Positions 55,483 to 64,000 of a DNA stretch of 64,000 bases are shown here, piece after piece (the stretch's first letter is position 1; each line of letters begins with the position of its first letter). This stretch comes from Streptomyces durmitorensis (GTDB taxonomy: Bacteria > Actinomycetota > Actinomycetes > Streptomycetales > Streptomycetaceae). The stretch lies in the NCBI RefSeq assembly GCF_023498005.1, contig NZ_CP097289.1:7998001-8062000 (forward strand). The letters run 5' to 3'. Made by a program: the position numbers and the translations under genes. Below the pieces are notes generated by a model. That model ran no database searches and was not told the origin of the DNA. It saw only the letters and a list, made by a program, of their open reading frames with translations.

Positions 55483-57279
55483 ATGAACGCACGCATCGAG
55501 GACTACGCCCTCATCGGTGACCTGGAATCCGCTGCCATGCTCGGCACGGACGGGTCGATCGACTGGCTCTGCCTGCCGCGCTTCGACTCACCGGCCTGTT
55601 TCGCCGCGCTGCTCGGCACGGCGGACAACGGATTCTGGCGGGTTTCCCCCGTCGGCGCAGGCCCGTGCGACCGGCGGGCCTACCGCCAGGACACCCTGGT
55701 CATGGATTCCCACTGGGAGTGCCCGGCCGGTGCCGTTCGCGTCACGGACTTCATGCCGCCCCGCGCGCAGCTGCCCTGCATCGTGCGCGTCGTCGAGGGC
55801 CTCTCCGGCGCCGTGGCGATGCGCAGCGAACTGCGGCCGCGCTTCAACCAGGGCCGTGTCGTCCCGTGGGTGCGGACCCAGGAGCACTGCACGGTCGCCG
55901 TGGCCGGGCCGGACGCACTCTGGCTGAGCGCCGACGGCCCGATGGAGATACGCGGCGGCGACCACACCGCCTCCACCGTCCTTGACTTCACCGTATCGGC
56001 GGGCCAGCGCCTCACGCTTCAGCTCGTGTGGGCGCCCTCGCATCTGCCCGATCCGCCCGCGCCCCTGAGCGTCCCGGCGGAGACGGCGCTCAAGGCGACC
56101 GGCGACTTCTGGCGGCGCTGGACGGCCCAGTGCCGCTACCAGGGCCCCTGGCGGGAGGCCGTCACCCGCTCGCTGATCACGCTGAAGGCCCTCACCTACG
56201 CGCCCACGGGCGGCATCGTCGCGGCACCGACGACTTCCCTGCCCGAGTGCGTCGGCGGCGAGCGCAACTGGGACTACCGCTTCTGCTGGCTGCGCGACTC
56301 CACGCTGACCCTGTCCGCCCTGCTGCGCAGCGGCTACCGGGACGAGGCCACGGCCTGGCTCGACTGGCTGGTGCGTGCCGTGGCCGGTGACCCCGCCGAT
56401 CTCCAGGCGGTGTACGGGGTGGAGGGACAGCGGCGGCTGCCGGAGGCCGAGGCGCCGTGGCTGCCCGGGTACGAGGGGTCGCGGCCCGTACGGTTCGGGA
56501 ACGCCGCGGTCGATCAGCTCCAGCTCGACGTCTACGGCGAGGTTCTCGACACGCTCTACCTGTCCCTGCGGGCGGGCATTCCGATGCAGCCCCATCTGTG
56601 GAGCCTGGTGGAATCACTGATGAGCCATCTGCAGGAGCACTGGCGGGAACCGGATCAGGGCCTGTGGGAAGTCCGGGACTCCCGGCGGCAGTTCGTCCAC
56701 TCCAAGGTCATGTCGTGGGTCGCCGCCGACCGTGCCCTGCGCATGGGTGAGCTGCTCGGCAGGGACGAGTCCGCGGGGGAGTGGCGCGCCATGCGGGACG
56801 CGGTCCACCGGGAGGTGTGCCACGAGGGGTGGGACGACGGACGGAGGTCGTTCGTGCAGTCCTACGGATCGCCCGTCCTTGACGCATCGGCCCTGCTGAT
56901 CCCCAAGGTCGGCTTCCTGCCCGCCGACGACGTGCGCGTGCGCGACACCGTCCGGGCGATGGAGGCACTGGACCACCACGGATTCGTGCGGAGGTACGCG
57001 TACGACGGCGGGGGCACGCACGACGTGGACGGCATGCGTGGATCCGAGGGCACGTTCGTGGCGTGTTCGCTCTGGTACGCCGACGCGCTTGCGGCGACCG
57101 GCCACCTCCGTCAGGCGCGCGAGACCTTCGAGCGCGTCCTGGACGTCCGCAACGACGTGGGCCTGCTCGCGGAGCAGTGGGATCCGGTCGGCCGTCGCCA
57201 ACTGGGCAACGCACCCCAGGCGTTCAGCCACATCGCGCTGGTGGAGACGGCGTTCGCACTCCAGGAGGCGGGCGCCTGA
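55483..57279 (+). CDS. Glycoside hydrolase family 15 protein (trehalase/glucoamylase-like)
   Basis: 598-residue GH15 enzyme: RIEDYALIGDLESAAMLGTDGSIDWLCLPRFDSPACFAALLG at the start (the actinobacterial GH15 N-domain), CVGGERNWDYRFCWLRDSTLTL, and the catalytic (alpha/alpha)6 barrel with glutamates in GSEGTFVACSLWYADAL and LLAEQWDP. Same family as mycobacterial GH15 trehalase. No signal peptide. ATG 55483; a TAGACT -10 element is 37 bases upstream. Confidence 0.93.
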   Translation: MNARIEDYALIGDLESAAMLGTDGSIDWLCLPRFDSPACFAALLGTADNGFWRVSPVGAGPCDRRAYRQDTLVMDSHWECPAGAVRVTDFMPPRAQLPCIVRVVEGLSGAVAMRSELRPRFNQGRVVPWVRTQEHCTVAVAGPDALWLSADGPMEIRGGDHTASTVLDFTVSAGQRLTLQLVWAPSHLPDPPAPLSVPAETALKATGDFWRRWTAQCRYQGPWREAVTRSLITLKALTYAPTGGIVAAPTTSLPECVGGERNWDYRFCWLRDSTLTLSALLRSGYRDEATAWLDWLVRAVAGDPADLQAVYGVEGQRRLPEAEAPWLPGYEGSRPVRFGNAAVDQLQLDVYGEVLDTLYLSLRAGIPMQPHLWSLVESLMSHLQEHWREPDQGLWEVRDSRRQFVHSKVMSWVAADRALRMGELLGRDESAGEWRAMRDAVHREVCHEGWDDGRRSFVQSYGSPVLDASALLIPKVGFLPADDVRVRDTVRAMEALDHHGFVRRYAYDGGGTHDVDGMRGSEGTFVACSLWYADALAATGHLRQARETFERVLDVRNDVGLLAEQWDPVGRRQLGNAPQAFSHIALVETAFALQEAGA

Positions 57280-57288
57280 GCAGCGAGG

Positions 57289-58026
57289 TCACGCACCGCG
57301 CCTCGCCGCCGTCAGGAGCACCATTCCGGAGTCCCCGTAGTCCGGCAGCGTCGGGTCGGCGTCGATCCTCGTGACCGTGAGGTGCTCGGTGAGCGGCGCG
57401 AAGACCTCGGTGACGACGGCCGGGTTCACCGGGCAGCCGGGCCAGCGCGACGCGGGCCCGATGCGGTACGTCGGCATGTTCTCCATGAACGCCGCGACGA
57501 GATGGCCGCCCGGCGCGACGGAGCGCACGAAGCGGTGGCAGAAGTCCGTGAACTCCGTGAAGTCCTCGGTGACGCCCTCGGCCACGAAGTTCATCGACGC
57601 GATGTCGTACGTGCCGGGCGGCAGCGCCCGGATGTCGCCGTGCACCACGCGCACACCCGCGAGCGCCTCCACAAGCGTCGGGGGCAGATCGGGGTTGAGG
57701 CGGCGACACAGCGCGTGGAACGGCAACCAGCTCTCGTCCGGCCCCTGTTCGAGCTGCCGGGTCAGATAGGCGACGCCCGCCGCGCTCGCCTCGACGGCGT
57801 CGATGCGGCGACTCGCGGCGGCGGCGAGGATCAGCGGATAGAGGTTGGGTCCGGCCCCGAACTCCAGGGAGCGTGCGGCGCTTGCCGGGGCGAACTGCCG
57901 GTAGAAGGCGCAGTGGTGAGCGATGACCGCGGCGTCGGAGGGGTGCAACTCGCGGTAGTTCTCGCCGAGATAGTCCTGCACGGGCCAACTGTCCCAGTCC
58001 ACGTCGTCGTTACGGGTCGGGGCCAT
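57289..58026 (-). CDS. SAM-dependent methyltransferase (NNMT/PNMT/TEMT-like)
   Basis: 245-residue class I methyltransferase. SAM motif I LEFGAGPNLYPLILAAAASRRIDAVEAS, motif post-I with the acidic residue, HGDIRALPPGTYDIASMNFVAEG, and VRSVAPGGHLVAAFMENMPTYRIG. The YLGENYRELHPSDAAVIAHHCAFYRQF start resembles NNMT/PNMT small-amine N-methyltransferases. ATG 58026 is six bases after the stop of the upstream PLP enzyme; the two are clearly one operon, so it probably methylates that enzyme's product (inference). Confidence 0.88.
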   Translation of the reverse strand: MAPTRNDDVDWDSWPVQDYLGENYRELHPSDAAVIAHHCAFYRQFAPASAARSLEFGAGPNLYPLILAAAASRRIDAVEASAAGVAYLTRQLEQGPDESWLPFHALCRRLNPDLPPTLVEALAGVRVVHGDIRALPPGTYDIASMNFVAEGVTEDFTEFTDFCHRFVRSVAPGGHLVAAFMENMPTYRIGPASRWPGCPVNPAVVTEVFAPLTEHLTVTRIDADPTLPDYGDSGMVLLTAARRGA

Positions 58027-58032
58027 GGCGTG

Positions 58033-61000
58033 TCAGCTCCCCGGTCGCAGCGGGAACCGTTCGGACAGGCGCGTCAGGGCCGCGTTCAGCCGGTCGATGT
58101 CCTCGTCCGAGTTCAGGGCCGTGAGCTGCACGCGGAAGCCGACGCGGTCGTGCGGCACGAGCGGATAGGCCGCAAGGGTCACGTAGATGCCCTGCTCCCA
58201 CAGGAATCCGGCCACCGCGTCCAGGTCGGATCCGTCGGCCAGGGGAATCTCCACGATCGGCAGCTGATCGGAGTTGAGCGTGTCGATGCCGAGCCCGGCC
58301 ACGTGGTCGAGCACCCGGAGGGTCTTGCGGTGCAGATCGGCGCGGATGGCGTCGCCGCGCCGGTCGTTGACCTCCAGGCCGGCGAGCGCGGTGGCGAGCG
58401 AGGCCGTGGGCGAGGGCCCGGAGTAGAGGTAGGGGGCGGCGGAGACCTTCAGGTGGTCCTTGAGCCGGGACGGCAGGGCGAGGAAGGCGAGCAGCGACGA
58501 GTAGGCCTTGGAGAAGCCGCCGACGAGCACGATGTTGTCGTACGTCTCGCCGGTGTGCCGTACGACGCTGTTGCCGCGCAGTCCGTACGGGCAGGGCTCG
58601 TCGGCGCCGCGCTCTCCGACGACGCCGAATCCGTGGGTGTCGTCGATGTACAGCGTGGCGCCGAAGTCCCGGCACATCCCGGCCAGTTCGGGGATGTCGG
58701 CGATGTTCCCGCTCATGCTGTTGACGCCGTCGAGGCAGACCAGGCGGGCCGTGCCGCTGGGTGCCGCACGCAGCAGGGCGGCCAGTTCGTCGGGGCGCTC
58801 CGCGTGGAACCGCCGCAGCGTCGCGCCCTGACCGCGGGCCGCCACGCAGCCGTCGTACACCGTGCGGTGCGCCGTGGCCTCGACGAAGACCTCGCCCTTG
58901 TCGGCGAGGACGGGGATCACCGAGGCGTGGATCAGCGTGGCCGTCGGGAGCAGCAGGGTGTCGGGCGCTCCGAGCAGCGCGGCGAGCCGCTCCTCGATCT
59001 CGGGGTAGAGCCGGGGGCTGCCGAGCAGCCGGGACCAGCTGGGGTGCGTTCCCCAGCGGCGTACGGCGGGTTCGATGGCGTCGATGATCTCCGGATCGCA
59101 GTCGAAGCCCAGGTAGTTGCAGGAGGCGAAGTCGATGAGCCAGTGGTCCCCGCTGCGGATGTGCCGGCCGCGGACCTCGTCCAGGACGCAGTCGCTCATC
59201 GGGCTGGTCCGCCGCAGGTGGTCGAGATCGCCCCAGCGCGGATCCCGCGGCGCTTCCAGGAGTTCGGTGTCCGGTTCGCTCATGGTGCTCTGCCTCTCCG
59301 AGGGGATCGGGGCGGCCGGGGCGGCCGGTGGGGCGACAGCGACGGCGACAGCGGGAGTGGCAGGCGCCACCCGGCTGCCCCGCGCGGCCCTGGGGCCCGT
59401 GGCGGCACCGTTGCTGCCCCGGCGCAGGCGCAGCAGCCGCTCCCCCTGCTCGGCCGTCAGCGGCCGTGCGAAGAGATAGCCCTGCCCGAACCCGCAGCCC
59501 ATCCCGGCCAGCAGGTCGCGCTGCGCGGACTGCTCGATCCCCTCGGCGATGACCTGCAGGCCCATCGTGTCGGCGAGGTGCACGATTCCCTCGACGAGGG
59601 CGAGCTGCCGGGCGTCGTCGGCGATGTCGTCGATGAACGTCTTGTCGATCTTGAGTACGTCGATGGGGAACTCGCGGAGGTAGCGCAGCGAGGAGTATCC
59701 CGTGCCGAAGTCGTCGACCGCGATCCGGACGCCCAGGTCCTTCAGCGCCTGCATGACCGCCTGTATCTGTCCGTCCCGCCGCATCAGTACTGACTCGGTG
59801 AGCTCCAACTGCAGGGAACCCGGGGCGAGTCCGGGTGTGTCCAGGGCCTTGCGCACCTCGTCGAGGAAGCCCGCGTCACGGAACTGCCGCGCGGACACGT
59901 TGACGCTGATGTAGGGGCGACGGGCCCGGGAGGGCCCCACACCCTGCAGTCCGGCGATGTCCGCCGCGGCGTTGCCGAGGACCCAGGCGCCCAGCGGCGT
60001 GATGTGCCCGGTCTCCTCGGCGAGCGGAATGAACTGCTGCGGCGGGACCAGGCCGCGCCGGGGGTGCGGCCAGCGGGCCAGGGCCTCGAAGCCGACGATC
60101 TCGGCCGCGTCCGCCGCACCGCCCGCCCGGCCGCCGTTCGCGCTGATGTCCACGACGGGCTGATAGCGCAGCGCGAACTCCTCGTCGGCGATGGCCCGGT
60201 CCAGGCCCGCCTGCAGGTCGTGCCGCTCCCGCATGCGTACGTGCAGCCGCTGCTGGAAGCGGCGCCACTGGCGCTTGCCCGCGGCCTTGGCGGCGTACAG
60301 CGCAAGGTCGGCGTGGGCGAGGAGCTCCTCGGCGCCCGCGCTGTCCGCGGCCGTGGACACGCCCACGCTCGCCGAGACGCTCACGGAGTCGCCGGACAGG
60401 TGGAACGGCCTGCTGAGCGCCTGCACCACCTGCGCGGCGAGGATCTCGGCGTCGACGGGCCGCTTCGCGTCCTCCATCAGGACGGCGAACTCGTCGCCGC
60501 CGAGGCGGGCCGCGGTGTCGCTGCGGCGCAGCGACCGCGAGAGGCGCGATCCCACCGCGGTCAGGAGCCGGTCGCCGACCGAGTGCCCCAGCGTGTCGTT
60601 GACGACCTTGAAGTCGTCGAGGTCGATGAAGAGCACGCAGGTCAGCGTCGACTCGCGGCGGCCTCGCAGCAGTGCGCGCTCGATGCGCTCCAGGAGCAGC
60701 GTCCGGTTGGGAAGGCCGGTCAGCGCGTCGTGGAAGGCCCGCTGGGTGAGCTCGTGCTCCAGCTGACGCTGCTCGGTCACGTCCCGCAGCGTGACGACGA
60801 GCCCGCGGACGGTCGGGTCGTCGCGCAGGTCGCTGCACCGCACCTCCACCTCGATGCGCCCGCCGTCCCGCGGCATCCACCAGTAGTCGTGGGGCTCGTG
60901 CCGCGCGCCGCTGCGCATGGCTACGAGCACCCGCGCCGCCCGGTCGCTGTCGCGCGGGTCCACAAGGGCGGGCAGCTCCGCACCGATCAGCGGGGCGTCC

Positions 61001-62475
61001 CCGAAGACGGCCTGCGCGGACGGGCTTGCGTACCGGACGGTGTCGTCGTCGTCGACGATGAGGATGACGTCGGAGGCGTTGCGCACCAACGTACGGAAAT
61101 ACGCCTCGCTCTCCCGCCGGATGATCTCCTGGCGCAGTGTGATGCGCTCCTTGGCCAGGCCCGCGTGCGAGGCGAGGATCTCCAGGGAGCCCCAGATCTC
61201 GGTGAGCTGCTTCTCGGCGCCGCCCGCGATCAGCACACCCGGCGGCTCCGCCCCGGCCGGGCGGTCGCGCTGGATCATCGGGCAGAGCAGCGCGCGCTGC
61301 TCTGCCCCGAAGCGGGCGGCGATCTCCGGGCCGAGGGCGGCGGCCCGCACCAGATGCGTGCGGTGCAGGTCGAGGGCGGCGTAGGGGGCCGGTGGTGCGT
61401 CGCCCGGCTCCAGGACCAGGGTCCAGGAGCGGGTTCCGGGACCGGACAGCGCGGCGACCGTCGTCTCGCAGGTCTCGGTGATCTCCTCCGTGGTGATCGC
61501 GGCCACCAGCGATGCGGCAGCCCCGCGCAGCGCGAGCTCACGGTCCACGGCCTTGCGGTGCGCCACGACCATGCCCGCGAGCCGCAGGATCACCAGGAGG
61601 AACAGCGTGCCGGAGAAGGCGGCGATCACGGCCGCGTCATGGGCCCTGTCGAGCAGCCCCTCCGCGAGCAGGATCGCCGGGGCGATGAGGGTGGCCGCGG
61701 CGAGCAGCACGAGCCTGCGCGGCGGCGGGAGCAGGCTCTGGCGCTGATGCGTGTAGGCGGTCAGCTCCACCATCGAGGGGTGCAGCGCGGCGAGGCCCCA
61801 CGCCGTGTAGAACACGATCCAGCCGGTGTCCAGGAGCGTGCCCGCCTGCCACAGGCCGTTGAGCTGCAGAATCCCGTACGCGATGTCGAAGACGAGCAGG
61901 GTGAGCGTGCCGAGGACGAGCAGGTGTACGGCGGGATTGTGGCCGGTCACGAAGCCCGGCGTGAGCAGCCGGGCCAGGAGGGCCAGGACCAGGACGTCAC
62001 CCAGCGGGTAGGCGATGCTGATGGCGCGCTGCGGCCAGGTCAGGCCCTCGACCTCGGTGAGCGGCTGGACGAGGTAGACCCAGACGGGCAGTGCGAGCCC
62101 GCCGGTGATGATCAGCGCGTCCAGGAGGCTCGGCAGGTCACGGCCTGCCCAGCGGTAGCGGACGAGGCCGAAGAGGCCCGCCGCGAGCAGCGGATACACC
62201 GCGAGGTAGCAGGCGTCCGCCGGTGAGGGGAAGGGATTCGACGCCTGGAAGTACTGCTCGACCACGTTGTAGTACGTGTCGCCCGCGGCGAAGGCCAACA
62301 GCCCGGCCGCAAGGACCCACCACGGCCAGCGGTGCGCGGGGCGGTGGACGCGCACCCCGACGAGGACGGCCGCGACACCGCCGAGCCCGATGAGCGCCCA
62401 GAGCGGGGCGCGCAGGCCCGGCACCGTCATGTAGACGGCGGTGAGAACGGCGACCAGGGCGAGATAGGCGGCCAT
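58033..62475 (-). CDS. Membrane PAS-GGDEF-EAL protein fused to an alpha-oxoamine synthase
   Basis: One 1480-residue frame. N-terminal 300 residues: about ten hydrophobic segments. GAF-like and PAS regions (about 330-560, RTLVRNASDVILIVDDDDTVRYASPSAQAVFG). GGDEF at 659-663 with an RRSD inhibitory site five residues before. EAL at 797-799 with NVSARQF, LELTESVLM, DDFGTGYSSL, KIDKTFI and AEGIEQ intact, so both c-di-GMP synthesis and hydrolysis are possible. A Pro/Ala linker (about 1020-1065) leads into a PLP alpha-oxoamine synthase (DFASCNYLGFD, WGTHPSWSRLLGSPRLYPEIE, DDTHGFGVVGERG, PLP lysine 1323 in GGFSKAYSS). There is no stop between. An internal ATG at 59283 with GGAGAGG could start the synthase alone. 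A TTG at 62526 with GGGAGG is an alternative start. Confidence 0.85.
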   Translation of the reverse strand: MAAYLALVAVLTAVYMTVPGLRAPLWALIGLGGVAAVLVGVRVHRPAHRWPWWVLAAGLLAFAAGDTYYNVVEQYFQASNPFPSPADACYLAVYPLLAAGLFGLVRYRWAGRDLPSLLDALIITGGLALPVWVYLVQPLTEVEGLTWPQRAISIAYPLGDVLVLALLARLLTPGFVTGHNPAVHLLVLGTLTLLVFDIAYGILQLNGLWQAGTLLDTGWIVFYTAWGLAALHPSMVELTAYTHQRQSLLPPPRRLVLLAAATLIAPAILLAEGLLDRAHDAAVIAAFSGTLFLLVILRLAGMVVAHRKAVDRELALRGAAASLVAAITTEEITETCETTVAALSGPGTRSWTLVLEPGDAPPAPYAALDLHRTHLVRAAALGPEIAARFGAEQRALLCPMIQRDRPAGAEPPGVLIAGGAEKQLTEIWGSLEILASHAGLAKERITLRQEIIRRESEAYFRTLVRNASDVILIVDDDDTVRYASPSAQAVFGDAPLIGAELPALVDPRDSDRAARVLVAMRSGARHEPHDYWWMPRDGGRIEVEVRCSDLRDDPTVRGLVVTLRDVTEQRQLEHELTQRAFHDALTGLPNRTLLLERIERALLRGRRESTLTCVLFIDLDDFKVVNDTLGHSVGDRLLTAVGSRLSRSLRRSDTAARLGGDEFAVLMEDAKRPVDAEILAAQVVQALSRPFHLSGDSVSVSASVGVSTAADSAGAEELLAHADLALYAAKAAGKRQWRRFQQRLHVRMRERHDLQAGLDRAIADEEFALRYQPVVDISANGGRAGGAADAAEIVGFEALARWPHPRRGLVPPQQFIPLAEETGHITPLGAWVLGNAAADIAGLQGVGPSRARRPYISVNVSARQFRDAGFLDEVRKALDTPGLAPGSLQLELTESVLMRRDGQIQAVMQALKDLGVRIAVDDFGTGYSSLRYLREFPIDVLKIDKTFIDDIADDARQLALVEGIVHLADTMGLQVIAEGIEQSAQRDLLAGMGCGFGQGYLFARPLTAEQGERLLRLRRGSNGAATGPRAARGSRVAPATPAVAVAVAPPAAPAAPIPSERQSTMSEPDTELLEAPRDPRWGDLDHLRRTSPMSDCVLDEVRGRHIRSGDHWLIDFASCNYLGFDCDPEIIDAIEPAVRRWGTHPSWSRLLGSPRLYPEIEERLAALLGAPDTLLLPTATLIHASVIPVLADKGEVFVEATAHRTVYDGCVAARGQGATLRRFHAERPDELAALLRAAPSGTARLVCLDGVNSMSGNIADIPELAGMCRDFGATLYIDDTHGFGVVGERGADEPCPYGLRGNSVVRHTGETYDNIVLVGGFSKAYSSLLAFLALPSRLKDHLKVSAAPYLYSGPSPTASLATALAGLEVNDRRGDAIRADLHRKTLRVLDHVAGLGIDTLNSDQLPIVEIPLADGSDLDAVAGFLWEQGIYVTLAAYPLVPHDRVGFRVQLTALNSDEDIDRLNAALTRLSERFPLRPGS
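59283..59305 (-). promoter_or_regulatory. Internal start and ribosome site of the oxoamine-synthase part
   Basis: On the minus strand GGAGAGG precedes ATG 59283 (MSEPDTELLEAPRDPRW) by about nine bases. Translation from here would give a free-standing 416-residue PLP enzyme, the normal size for this family. It lies in the Pro/Ala-rich linker after the EAL domain. Confidence 0.5.
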
Positions 62476-62635
62476 GAGCCGATGGGCGCGCGGGTGTCCC
62501 CGAGGATGTGCCCGAAGCAATGGCAAAGCGCCTCCCTGCGTGGCAGGGACACCCGGCCGAGAACACGCGTCAACCTGGGGTCTCGCTGCTTCGATCGTAG
62601 GCCTGGGCGGCGGGCGCCTGCATCTTCTGCCGGCT

Positions 62636-64000
62636 TCAGTCCGGCGCGGGCACCGCGGCCCCGACCGGCGGAGGCGTACCGACGGTGCGGCCGAAGTAGT
62701 CGACGGATCCGGGGTCGATGCCGAACAGCTTGCGCAGGTCGAGGCCCTTGTCCGCGAGGGCGGCGCAGTCCGGTGCGAGGCGGGGTGCGTCGCCGGGGGA
62801 TTCGACGGCGGGCAGCTCGCCACCGGCGAAGCAGGGGTCGACGGTCAGGCCGGACGGCTTCCCGTCGACGCGTTCCTGGCCGGTCGCCTTCCGCCATGTG
62901 TCGAGGCCGGTGTAGGCGTGGTCGCCCCACTGCACGACCCACTGTCCCTGCGGCGCACGGTAGTTGTTGCCCTGCACCAGGACATTCTTGGCCGTGAGTC
63001 CCCGGTCCACCAGGGCCAGCGGGGAGCCGTCGGTGACGAAGGTGTTGTTGCGCACGGTGACGCCCGTCTGGCCGTCCATCAGGCGCAGGGCGGGACCGCT
63101 CTTTCCGTTCTCCAGAGCCGTCATGACCACGGTGTTCTGGTAGATCCGCAGGTTGCGCACGTCGTGGCCGTAGACGGCGAGCCCGCCGAAGCGCGGCAGC
63201 TTGCGGCCGTCGTCGGACGTGATGTTGTAGCGGATCGTGTTGTCGGTGTGCGCGCCGTTCGCCTTGCGGGTGTAGGCGTAGAAGCCGGGGCCGTCGTTGT
63301 GGAACGCCAGGTTGTACTGGATCGTCGAGTCCGAGACGTTCTCGTCGAATCCGAACCCGGCACCGTCGACGTCGGAGCCCGTGTGGTTGCGGTAGGCGGT
63401 GTTGTGCTCCAGGAGCACGTCCGTGGCGTCGTAGGCCCAGATGCCCACCGGACCCGATGGTGCCTCGGTGGCCGAGGTCGATCCGTTGTCGTGGGCGCTG
63501 GAGTCGCGCACCGTGGCGTGGCGCACGGCGCCGAGGATGATGCCGTCGCCGGTGTGGCGCTCGACCGCCTCGGGATCACCGGTGTTGCGGTACGCGTCGA
63601 CGTCCGAGATGTCGAAGTCCTCGTGCGCGTAGGAGGGTTGGCCGGGGTCGAACTGCGGGCCGTACGTCAGGAGGCCGGCGTCCTTGTTGCCGTGCAGTTG
63701 CGCCTGGCGGATCGTCACATTCTTGAATCCGTTGCCCTTCTCGGTGCCGCCGACCGCGATGCCCACCTGGAATCCGGAGACGGTGACGCCGGAGACGGAG
63801 ACACGGTCCAGCTTTCCGCCGCCCGGACGGTCGGCGTAGAGATTGATGCCGCCGTCGCGGGCGTAGGCGGCGCGGTCCCCCTTGACGGTGAGATCGCGGA
63901 TCTCCACGCCCGCCGTGTTGTGCACGGAGATGCCGGGAGAGCCCTCGGCCTCGACCGTCGCCCGCCCCTCGCCGTACGACCCGACCACCACCGGCCGGTC
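62636..64000 (-). CDS. Right-handed parallel beta-helix repeat protein (partial)
   Basis: At least 454 residues of a pectate-lyase-like beta-helix; the 5' end runs off the window (the frame is open past 64000). Repeated short beta rungs are seen (GISVHNTAGVEIRDLTVKG, GIAVGGTEKGNGFKNVTIRQAQLHGNKDAGLLTYG, VGIWAYDATDVLLEHNTAYRNHTGSDVDGAGFGFDENVSDSTIQYNLAFHNDGPGF, VRNNTFVT). Asn/Asp-rich turns match NosD/PbH1-type carbohydrate-binding or polysaccharide lyase proteins. Probably secreted; the signal peptide would be outside the window. No catalytic assignment is possible. Confidence 0.88.
   Translation of the reverse strand, partial: DRPVVVGSYGEGRATVEAEGSPGISVHNTAGVEIRDLTVKGDRAAYARDGGINLYADRPGGGKLDRVSVSGVTVSGFQVGIAVGGTEKGNGFKNVTIRQAQLHGNKDAGLLTYGPQFDPGQPSYAHEDFDISDVDAYRNTGDPEAVERHTGDGIILGAVRHATVRDSSAHDNGSTSATEAPSGPVGIWAYDATDVLLEHNTAYRNHTGSDVDGAGFGFDENVSDSTIQYNLAFHNDGPGFYAYTRKANGAHTDNTIRYNITSDDGRKLPRFGGLAVYGHDVRNLRIYQNTVVMTALENGKSGPALRLMDGQTGVTVRNNTFVTDGSPLALVDRGLTAKNVLVQGNNYRAPQGQWVVQWGDHAYTGLDTWRKATGQERVDGKPSGLTVDPCFAGGELPAVESPGDAPRLAPDCAALADKGLDLRKLFGIDPGSVDYFGRTVGTPPPVGAAVPAPD

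Follow-up and report, generated by a model that had tools for sequence, protein, structure and literature searches.

The window analysed here, the whole of a 64,000-nucleotide stretch of Streptomyces durmitorensis DNA (contig NZ_CP097289.1, positions 7,998,001 to 8,062,000), carries on its reverse strand a gene that joins a membrane sensor-PAS-GGDEF-EAL protein to an alpha-oxoamine synthase (AOS), a pyridoxal phosphate (PLP) enzyme, within a single polypeptide. The fusion is real, conserved and no assembly error. We favour, at somewhat below even confidence, a reading in which the chain combines a signal synthase with its receptor, the signal acting on the second messenger cyclic di-GMP (c-di-GMP). 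The gene and its parts are as follows.

58033..62526, reverse strand: fusion gene (cdgF type), membrane sensor-PAS-GGDEF-EAL-linker-AOS (open reading frame, Pfam)
62531..62537, reverse strand: AGGGAGG, resembling a ribosome site, a few bases upstream of TTG 62526
61501..62475, reverse strand: N-terminal membrane sensor domain with ten predicted helices (AlphaFold2, hydropathy)
60778..61101, reverse strand: PAS domain (Pfam and fold search)
60271..60738, reverse strand: GGDEF domain with RRSD inhibitory site (Pfam and motif check)
59461..60204, reverse strand: EAL domain, catalytic motifs present (Pfam and motif check)
59284..59460, reverse strand: Pro/Ala linker without a stop
59281..59299, reverse strand: possible internal start, ATG 59283 with GGAGAGG (59293-59299), at the place where the AOS starts in relatives' separate genes
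58036..59283, reverse strand: AOS region, 416 residues from the internal ATG, with the presumed PLP lysine K259 at 58507-58509

Reading-frame analysis finds no stop from position 62823 to the TGA at 58033-58035, linker included, and Pfam matches above cut-off fall in the order PAS, GGDEF, EAL and Aminotran_1_2. This is the arrangement that an earlier note, made from the sequence alone, had described: a membrane PAS-GGDEF-EAL protein with intact GGDEF, EAL and RxxD inhibitory site, running in frame through a stop-free Pro/Ala linker into a complete AOS. The GGDEF motif is present with RRSD five residues ahead of it, and the EAL-side motifs were all found (EAL, NVSA, ELTES, DDFGTG, LKIDK and AEGIE); we take RRSD to be the I-site and the GGDEF and EAL motifs to have their usual roles. 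Translation may begin at TTG 62526, preceded by AGGGAGG, to give 1497 residues, or at ATG 62475, which has no ribosome-like site and gives the 1480 residues of the window's own database entry (P0122). The ten helices derive from an AlphaFold2 model of the 575-residue N-terminal piece (mean pLDDT 83.8), and hydropathy was also run; the Pfam scan of the fusion gave no match in this membrane domain, and the matches of a fold search with the 575-residue model fall on its PAS part. Scanning positions 57000-63200 for promoters and terminators found nothing. Upstream on the same strand lies a gene for a parallel beta-helix protein (62636-63991), similar genes being found in a few relatives.

The C-terminal region belongs to the AOS family of fold-type I PLP enzymes by its Aminotran_1_2 domain and cofactor residues. 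H139, D214, H217 and K259 are conserved among relatives and line up with identical residues in AOS enzymes of solved structure; presumably they are the stacking histidine, the aspartate and histidine of the cofactor site, and the PLP lysine. The link from c-di-GMP turnover to an enzyme of the type that condenses acyl-CoA with an amino acid, which the earlier note had proposed, is upheld by the true fusion. The best NCBIfam scores come from the bioF (178.8 bits against a cut-off of 426) and serine palmitoyltransferase (SPT; 155.2 against 500) models, with Kbl (142.5 against 460) and ALAS (103.3 against 339) also far under cut-off. Assignment of a substrate from these scores was dropped, every model being under its cut-off. 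In one clade (L045, L047, L128 and L131) the PLP lysine of the fused AOS is replaced by Arg or Asn, and both domain and fusion persist; this AOS is possibly a pseudo-enzyme.

Conservation was assessed in 392 drawn Streptomyces genomes; a close AOS is present in 69. The window, the other 68 and 48 named loci made 117 examined, and setting aside 14 duplicates left 103; duplicates were defined by identical last 300 AOS residues only, and near-identical strains remain in the counts. Junction frames were tested by script, as open-frame length alone is insufficient at several loci where the c-di-GMP gene lies in another frame. The AOS is fused in frame at the junction in 84 of the 103 distinct loci, the window included, although one locus counted as fused (L123, genome G224) carries stops inside the AOS. 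A further 14 are adjacent separate genes, two of them broken, and at five no GGDEF-EAL gene can be seen (two from Frankia, a Parafrankia fragment, one locus at a contig end and another fragment). Database proteins of great length that match the AOS region form 465 clusters, and the 120 listed among these carry PF00155 and PF00563. What the note had held would overturn its idea, that close relatives all have separate genes and make only the short enzyme, is not what is found, given these fused loci and the 40 of 84 fused linkers with neither ATG nor GTG. The chance that an assembly error or a chance read-through without a fusion product explains the window is negligible; conservation across 84 distinct in-frame loci rules it out for practical purposes, and many long database proteins also stand against it.

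The linker varies in length without losing the frame. By BLAST ends it has 34 different lengths of 18 to 116 residues, with 51 length changes on the tree, and between fixed motifs it has 33 lengths of 98-197 residues across 83 loci, all in frame. Because two independent genes would not remain in frame like this, we conclude that the fusion is translated and kept. Outside Streptomycetaceae all 32 tested AOS loci are separate genes and none is fused. An AOS tree of 128 rows, built by a quick method after dropping L083, L085, L123, L124 and L125 as fragments or broken, and with rows from outside Streptomycetaceae coded as separate from the outset, has fused deep Streptomycetaceae branches and requires at least seven changes between fused and separate states. 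The separate streptomycete loci are confined to one subclade, the window's own, in which its nearest neighbours are L147 (fused) and L040 (separate, with an ATGA overlap). Actinoplanes relatives stand at 64-65%. Most simply, the genes fused once and were split several times afterwards, with the caveat that the number of changes alone does not separate gain from loss.

These observations bear on an alternative in which the messenger controls synthesis: some other cue would determine the c-di-GMP state of GGDEF and EAL, and this would turn the tethered AOS on or off. A covalent link to intact I-site, GGDEF and EAL motifs is what such switching would use, and RpfR, a c-di-GMP receptor protein, is reported to be able to restrain a synthase. 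However, the unfixed linker length is unlike rigid allosteric coupling, and the separate genes outside Streptomycetaceae also speak against this alternative, which we regard as improbable.

The earlier note had further proposed that the internal ATG allows both a long fusion and a short enzyme. The start is indeed present, with nine bases between GGAGAGG and ATG 59283. Among the 14 separate loci, 12 have a start with a ribosome-like site, the two exceptions being the broken ones, and in the rows shown this start lies 18-21 residues ahead of AOS residue 19, which is the place of ATG 59283. That place, together with the split of the near relative L040 at the same point, argues that the window strain might add a free 416-residue AOS to the 1480- or 1497-residue fusion. 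Against this, an ATG with a ribosome-like site occurs in only 11 of the 84 fused linkers, the window's among them (20 if GTG is allowed), and many linkers have neither codon. We regard dual products in the window strain as a minority prospect worth keeping in view, and production of both forms is plausible mainly in the loci that retain the internal start and ribosome site. Synthesis of the short enzyme only is unlikely at the 40 loci whose linkers lack ATG and GTG; even so, all 83 fused loci tested have an in-frame Met close to AOS residue 29, two of them with a ribosome-like site.

The AOS is kept with the sensor well beyond the fusion. Of the 392 Streptomyces genomes, 68 have both the membrane domain and the AOS, 1 the AOS alone, 6 the sensor alone and 317 neither; among 396 genomes of the phylum the AOS occurs in 22, every one of which has the sensor. 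The sensor profile matches a gene at the AOS locus in all 20 loci from other classes, 11 of which had been in the profile. A GGDEF-EAL match accompanies 16 of these 20, some loci being cut by contig ends; the contig of L226 ends inside the sensor gene. At L217 (2-1663), L221 (1733-4804) and L233 (2467-4236) the sensor near the AOS ends in a histidine kinase, not in GGDEF-EAL, and response regulator genes lie nearby; L215, L218 and L225 hold a further sensor with histidine kinase. The pairing of AOS with a sensor kinase lacking GGDEF-EAL at three of the 20 loci is a further argument against control of the AOS by c-di-GMP. Major facilitator superfamily (MFS) genes are found at 10 of the 20, with tight runs of AOS, sensor and MFS genes in L219, L222, L223 and L229; in Streptomyces, an MFS gene lies between the AOS and the methyltransferase described below at four loci, one a duplicate. 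Of 12 Frankia-type loci, 10 have a GGDEF-EAL match near the AOS, and 11 carry a leucyl/phenylalanyl-tRNA transferase gene there (L082, L084, the L184-L192 range and L194); the sensor profile matches nine of the 12 weakly (35-58 bits), with no match at L185, L189 and L194. Flanking genes were called with a crude open reading frame caller, and the neighbour-gene counts (MFS, GGDEF-EAL, transferase) retain duplicates. The sensor is thus the constant partner of the AOS, the output varies and a transporter recurs.

A second gene follows the fusion closely on the same strand.

57289..58026, reverse strand: S-adenosylmethionine methyltransferase, starting 6 bases past the fusion stop, predicted over its whole length to fold like PNMT/NNMT amine N-methyltransferases

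Its model has the overall fold of the NNMT/PNMT/TEMT family at 15-20% identity to PNMT, NNMT and INMT, and PF01234 scores 23.3 bits, just short of the cut-off of 25. The SCO2525 family model (NF040568) gives 126.6 bits against a cut-off of 240, and a sequence search of the PDB gave no match. An intact AOS site and a methyltransferase occur together at 90 loci and a changed site without methyltransferase at five, with one locus in each mixed class (Fisher's p = 5.5e-7, which overstates independence); the five represent two lineages, four loci being in one clade with L081 in addition. The methyltransferase is mostly lost when AOS catalysis is lost. Convergent with the methyltransferase is a GH15/trehalase-like gene (55483-57279), and similar flanking genes are found in L045, L081, L254, L255 and L257 among others.

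The fusion in the window almost certainly has its counterpart in CdgF of Streptomyces venezuelae. CdgF (vnz02140/sven0451) is described in PMC6205966 as a 10TM-PAS-PAC-GGDEF-EAL protein with the key residues in both domains, with expression among the lowest, and with a C-terminally FLAG-tagged form found in the membrane fraction only. It is one of five S. venezuelae proteins with both GGDEF and EAL, and its function was called undefined in 2026. Genome G015, whose identity we infer, has exactly five EAL genes (at 0.487, 2.84, 5.58, 5.61 and 7.48 Mb), in the order of the published tags vnz02140, 12760, 25525, 25635 and 33675; the weak EAL score of one of them marks it as CdgC. The fusion is the gene at 487 kb, the expected place of the first tag, and since the five genes match the five tags in order, CdgF is identified by elimination. 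A protein named as Streptomyces venezuelae (P0242, 1547 residues) is 99% identical to the G015 fusion over the compared region, and the shared tree also supports orthology to vnz02140. The window protein likewise combines about ten helices with PAS, GGDEF and EAL (AlphaFold2, Pfam) and has both motif sets intact. In the AOS frame the CdgF linker (L112) offers none of the start codons ATG, GTG and TTG, with which the membrane-only C-terminal tag agrees. The CdgF papers examined leave the AOS domain unmentioned: 'synthase' and 'transferase' occur 0 times in PMC6205966, and literature searches limited to open-licence papers without their supplements, with term searches inside PMC6205966, PMC7911125 and PMC8846402, found no description of this fusion. 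The statement in the earlier note that no such protein had been described consequently holds for the AOS part within that literature and fails for the protein itself, which CdgF almost certainly is.

In the model we favour, the AOS would form an alpha-aminoketone by condensing an amino acid with acyl-CoA or acyl-ACP, and the PNMT-like neighbour may methylate the amine of this product. The product would then leave the cell, in some relatives via the MFS transporter of the cluster, and be read by the ten-helix membrane domain, the PAS domain or both, shifting the balance of GGDEF and EAL activities and with it the c-di-GMP level. Tethering would keep synthase and receptor at the membrane in a fixed ratio, and through it the receptor may also hold back the synthase. 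We prefer this direction, from product through sensor to c-di-GMP, because a receptor kept with its synthase, interchangeable outputs and a transporter are the pattern of CqsA/CqsS and RpfF/RpfR; judged by gene context, a product read by the sensor fits better than a messenger that controls synthesis.

Several observations weigh against this model. Adjacency and fusion indicate a functional link, not its direction. The sensor occurs without the AOS in 49 of the 396 phylum genomes, and one Streptomyces sensor subfamily sits beside an MbtH-A-T-reductase gene without an AOS; because the sensor family is also found without the AOS, what it senses may be something other than an AOS product. Where the AOS site is changed, GGDEF and I-site are retained together with the majority of the EAL motifs (no DDFG match in L047 and L131), and four genomes keep the GGDEF-EAL gene with the AOS gone; because it is retained where the AOS is changed or lost, GGDEF-EAL must be useful without a local product. 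Transporter genes are found at few Streptomyces loci. L095 has an intact AOS site with its methyltransferase reduced to a 27-residue remnant, and L048 and G381 keep the methyltransferase despite a changed or missing AOS. By sequence the AOS is not CqsA, the CqsA model PRK07179 scoring 71.3 bits against a cut-off of 428. Deletion of cdgF left development unaffected according to PMC6205966.

The outlasting of AOS loss by the GGDEF-EAL gene also suits another alternative, that the fusion serves only to anchor the AOS to the membrane or to keep expression balanced, with c-di-GMP turnover a separate function. The product might then be a membrane lipid precursor, as made by serine palmitoyltransferase, or another metabolite, in keeping with BioF and SPT as the best, though far under cut-off, NCBIfam scores. 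Co-occurrence of AOS and sensor at all depths searched nevertheless exceeds the needs of co-expression, and the amine N-methyltransferase fold nearby and the MFS genes point away from a lipid; on balance we think such an alternative unlikely.

A wider extension of the synthase-receptor model takes in Streptomyces sensors without an AOS.

L258-L267, L269-L273: second-subfamily sensor-PAS-GGDEF-EAL loci, in which a livipeptin-like core accompanies a c-di-GMP sensor

This second subfamily, a sensor-GGDEF-EAL gene with 44-49% sensor identity, is present in 12 Streptomyces genomes. The MbtH-A-T-reductase gene (79-100% identical to that of L261, on whose protein alone the domains were assigned by Pfam) lies directly after the sensor gene in all 12; an Aat-like gene is next in the four of four loci fetched far enough, and a divergent MFS gene is found in 7 of 12. 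We raise, as a rather doubtful proposal, that CdgF unites an autoinducer synthase and its receptor in one chain and that its sensor belongs to a family dedicated to alpha-amino-carbonyl signals, with c-di-GMP and histidine kinase as interchangeable outputs. The partner of the sensor would be an AOS (giving an aminoketone, N-methylated in Streptomyces), an AOS together with an aminoacyl-tRNA transferase (Frankia-type) or, in this Streptomyces subfamily, an A-T-reductase nonribosomal peptide synthetase (giving an aminoaldehyde) together with an aminoacyl-tRNA transferase. These chemistries could converge on small cyclic signals, for example pyrazinones.

If the synthase-receptor model is correct, its signal would, to our knowledge, be the first in actinomycetes to be made by an AOS, and a single polypeptide holding both synthase and receptor would be a rarity; we know of no earlier one-chain autoinducer synthase and receptor, nor of AOS-based signalling outside proteobacteria. 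CdgF would gain a testable role, and a candidate small molecule would feed c-di-GMP control of Streptomyces. Searching the phylum for sensor plus AOS is also a way to find other systems built on this logic.

Other known systems are comparable in part. Livipeptin-type clusters, with an A-PCP-reductase and a leucyl/phenylalanyl-tRNA transferase, resemble the second-subfamily core and have the aat gene in common with the Frankia-type AOS loci; a term search of the available text of PMC10548850 found no AOS named and no c-di-GMP term. RpfF/RpfR of BDSF signalling couples a signal synthase to a PAS-containing receptor that acts on c-di-GMP; the window fusion has a PAS-GGDEF-EAL architecture by Pfam, the signal role of its AOS being putative. 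Unlike the AOS, RpfF is no PLP enzyme; RpfR, for its part, stands as a separate protein and lacks a ten-helix membrane domain. In the alpha-hydroxyketone quorum sensing systems CqsA/CqsS and LqsA/LqsS, the synthases CqsA and LqsA are of the AOS type, and the likeness lies in a synthase gene beside a membrane sensor gene, an arrangement found as separate genes in relatives and as one chain in the window. The AOS is far from CqsA in sequence, its sensor usually carries GGDEF-EAL and the Streptomyces form is mostly one chain, in all of which it is unlike CqsA/CqsS; in L217, L221 and L233 the likeness extends to the sensor, which ends in a histidine kinase.
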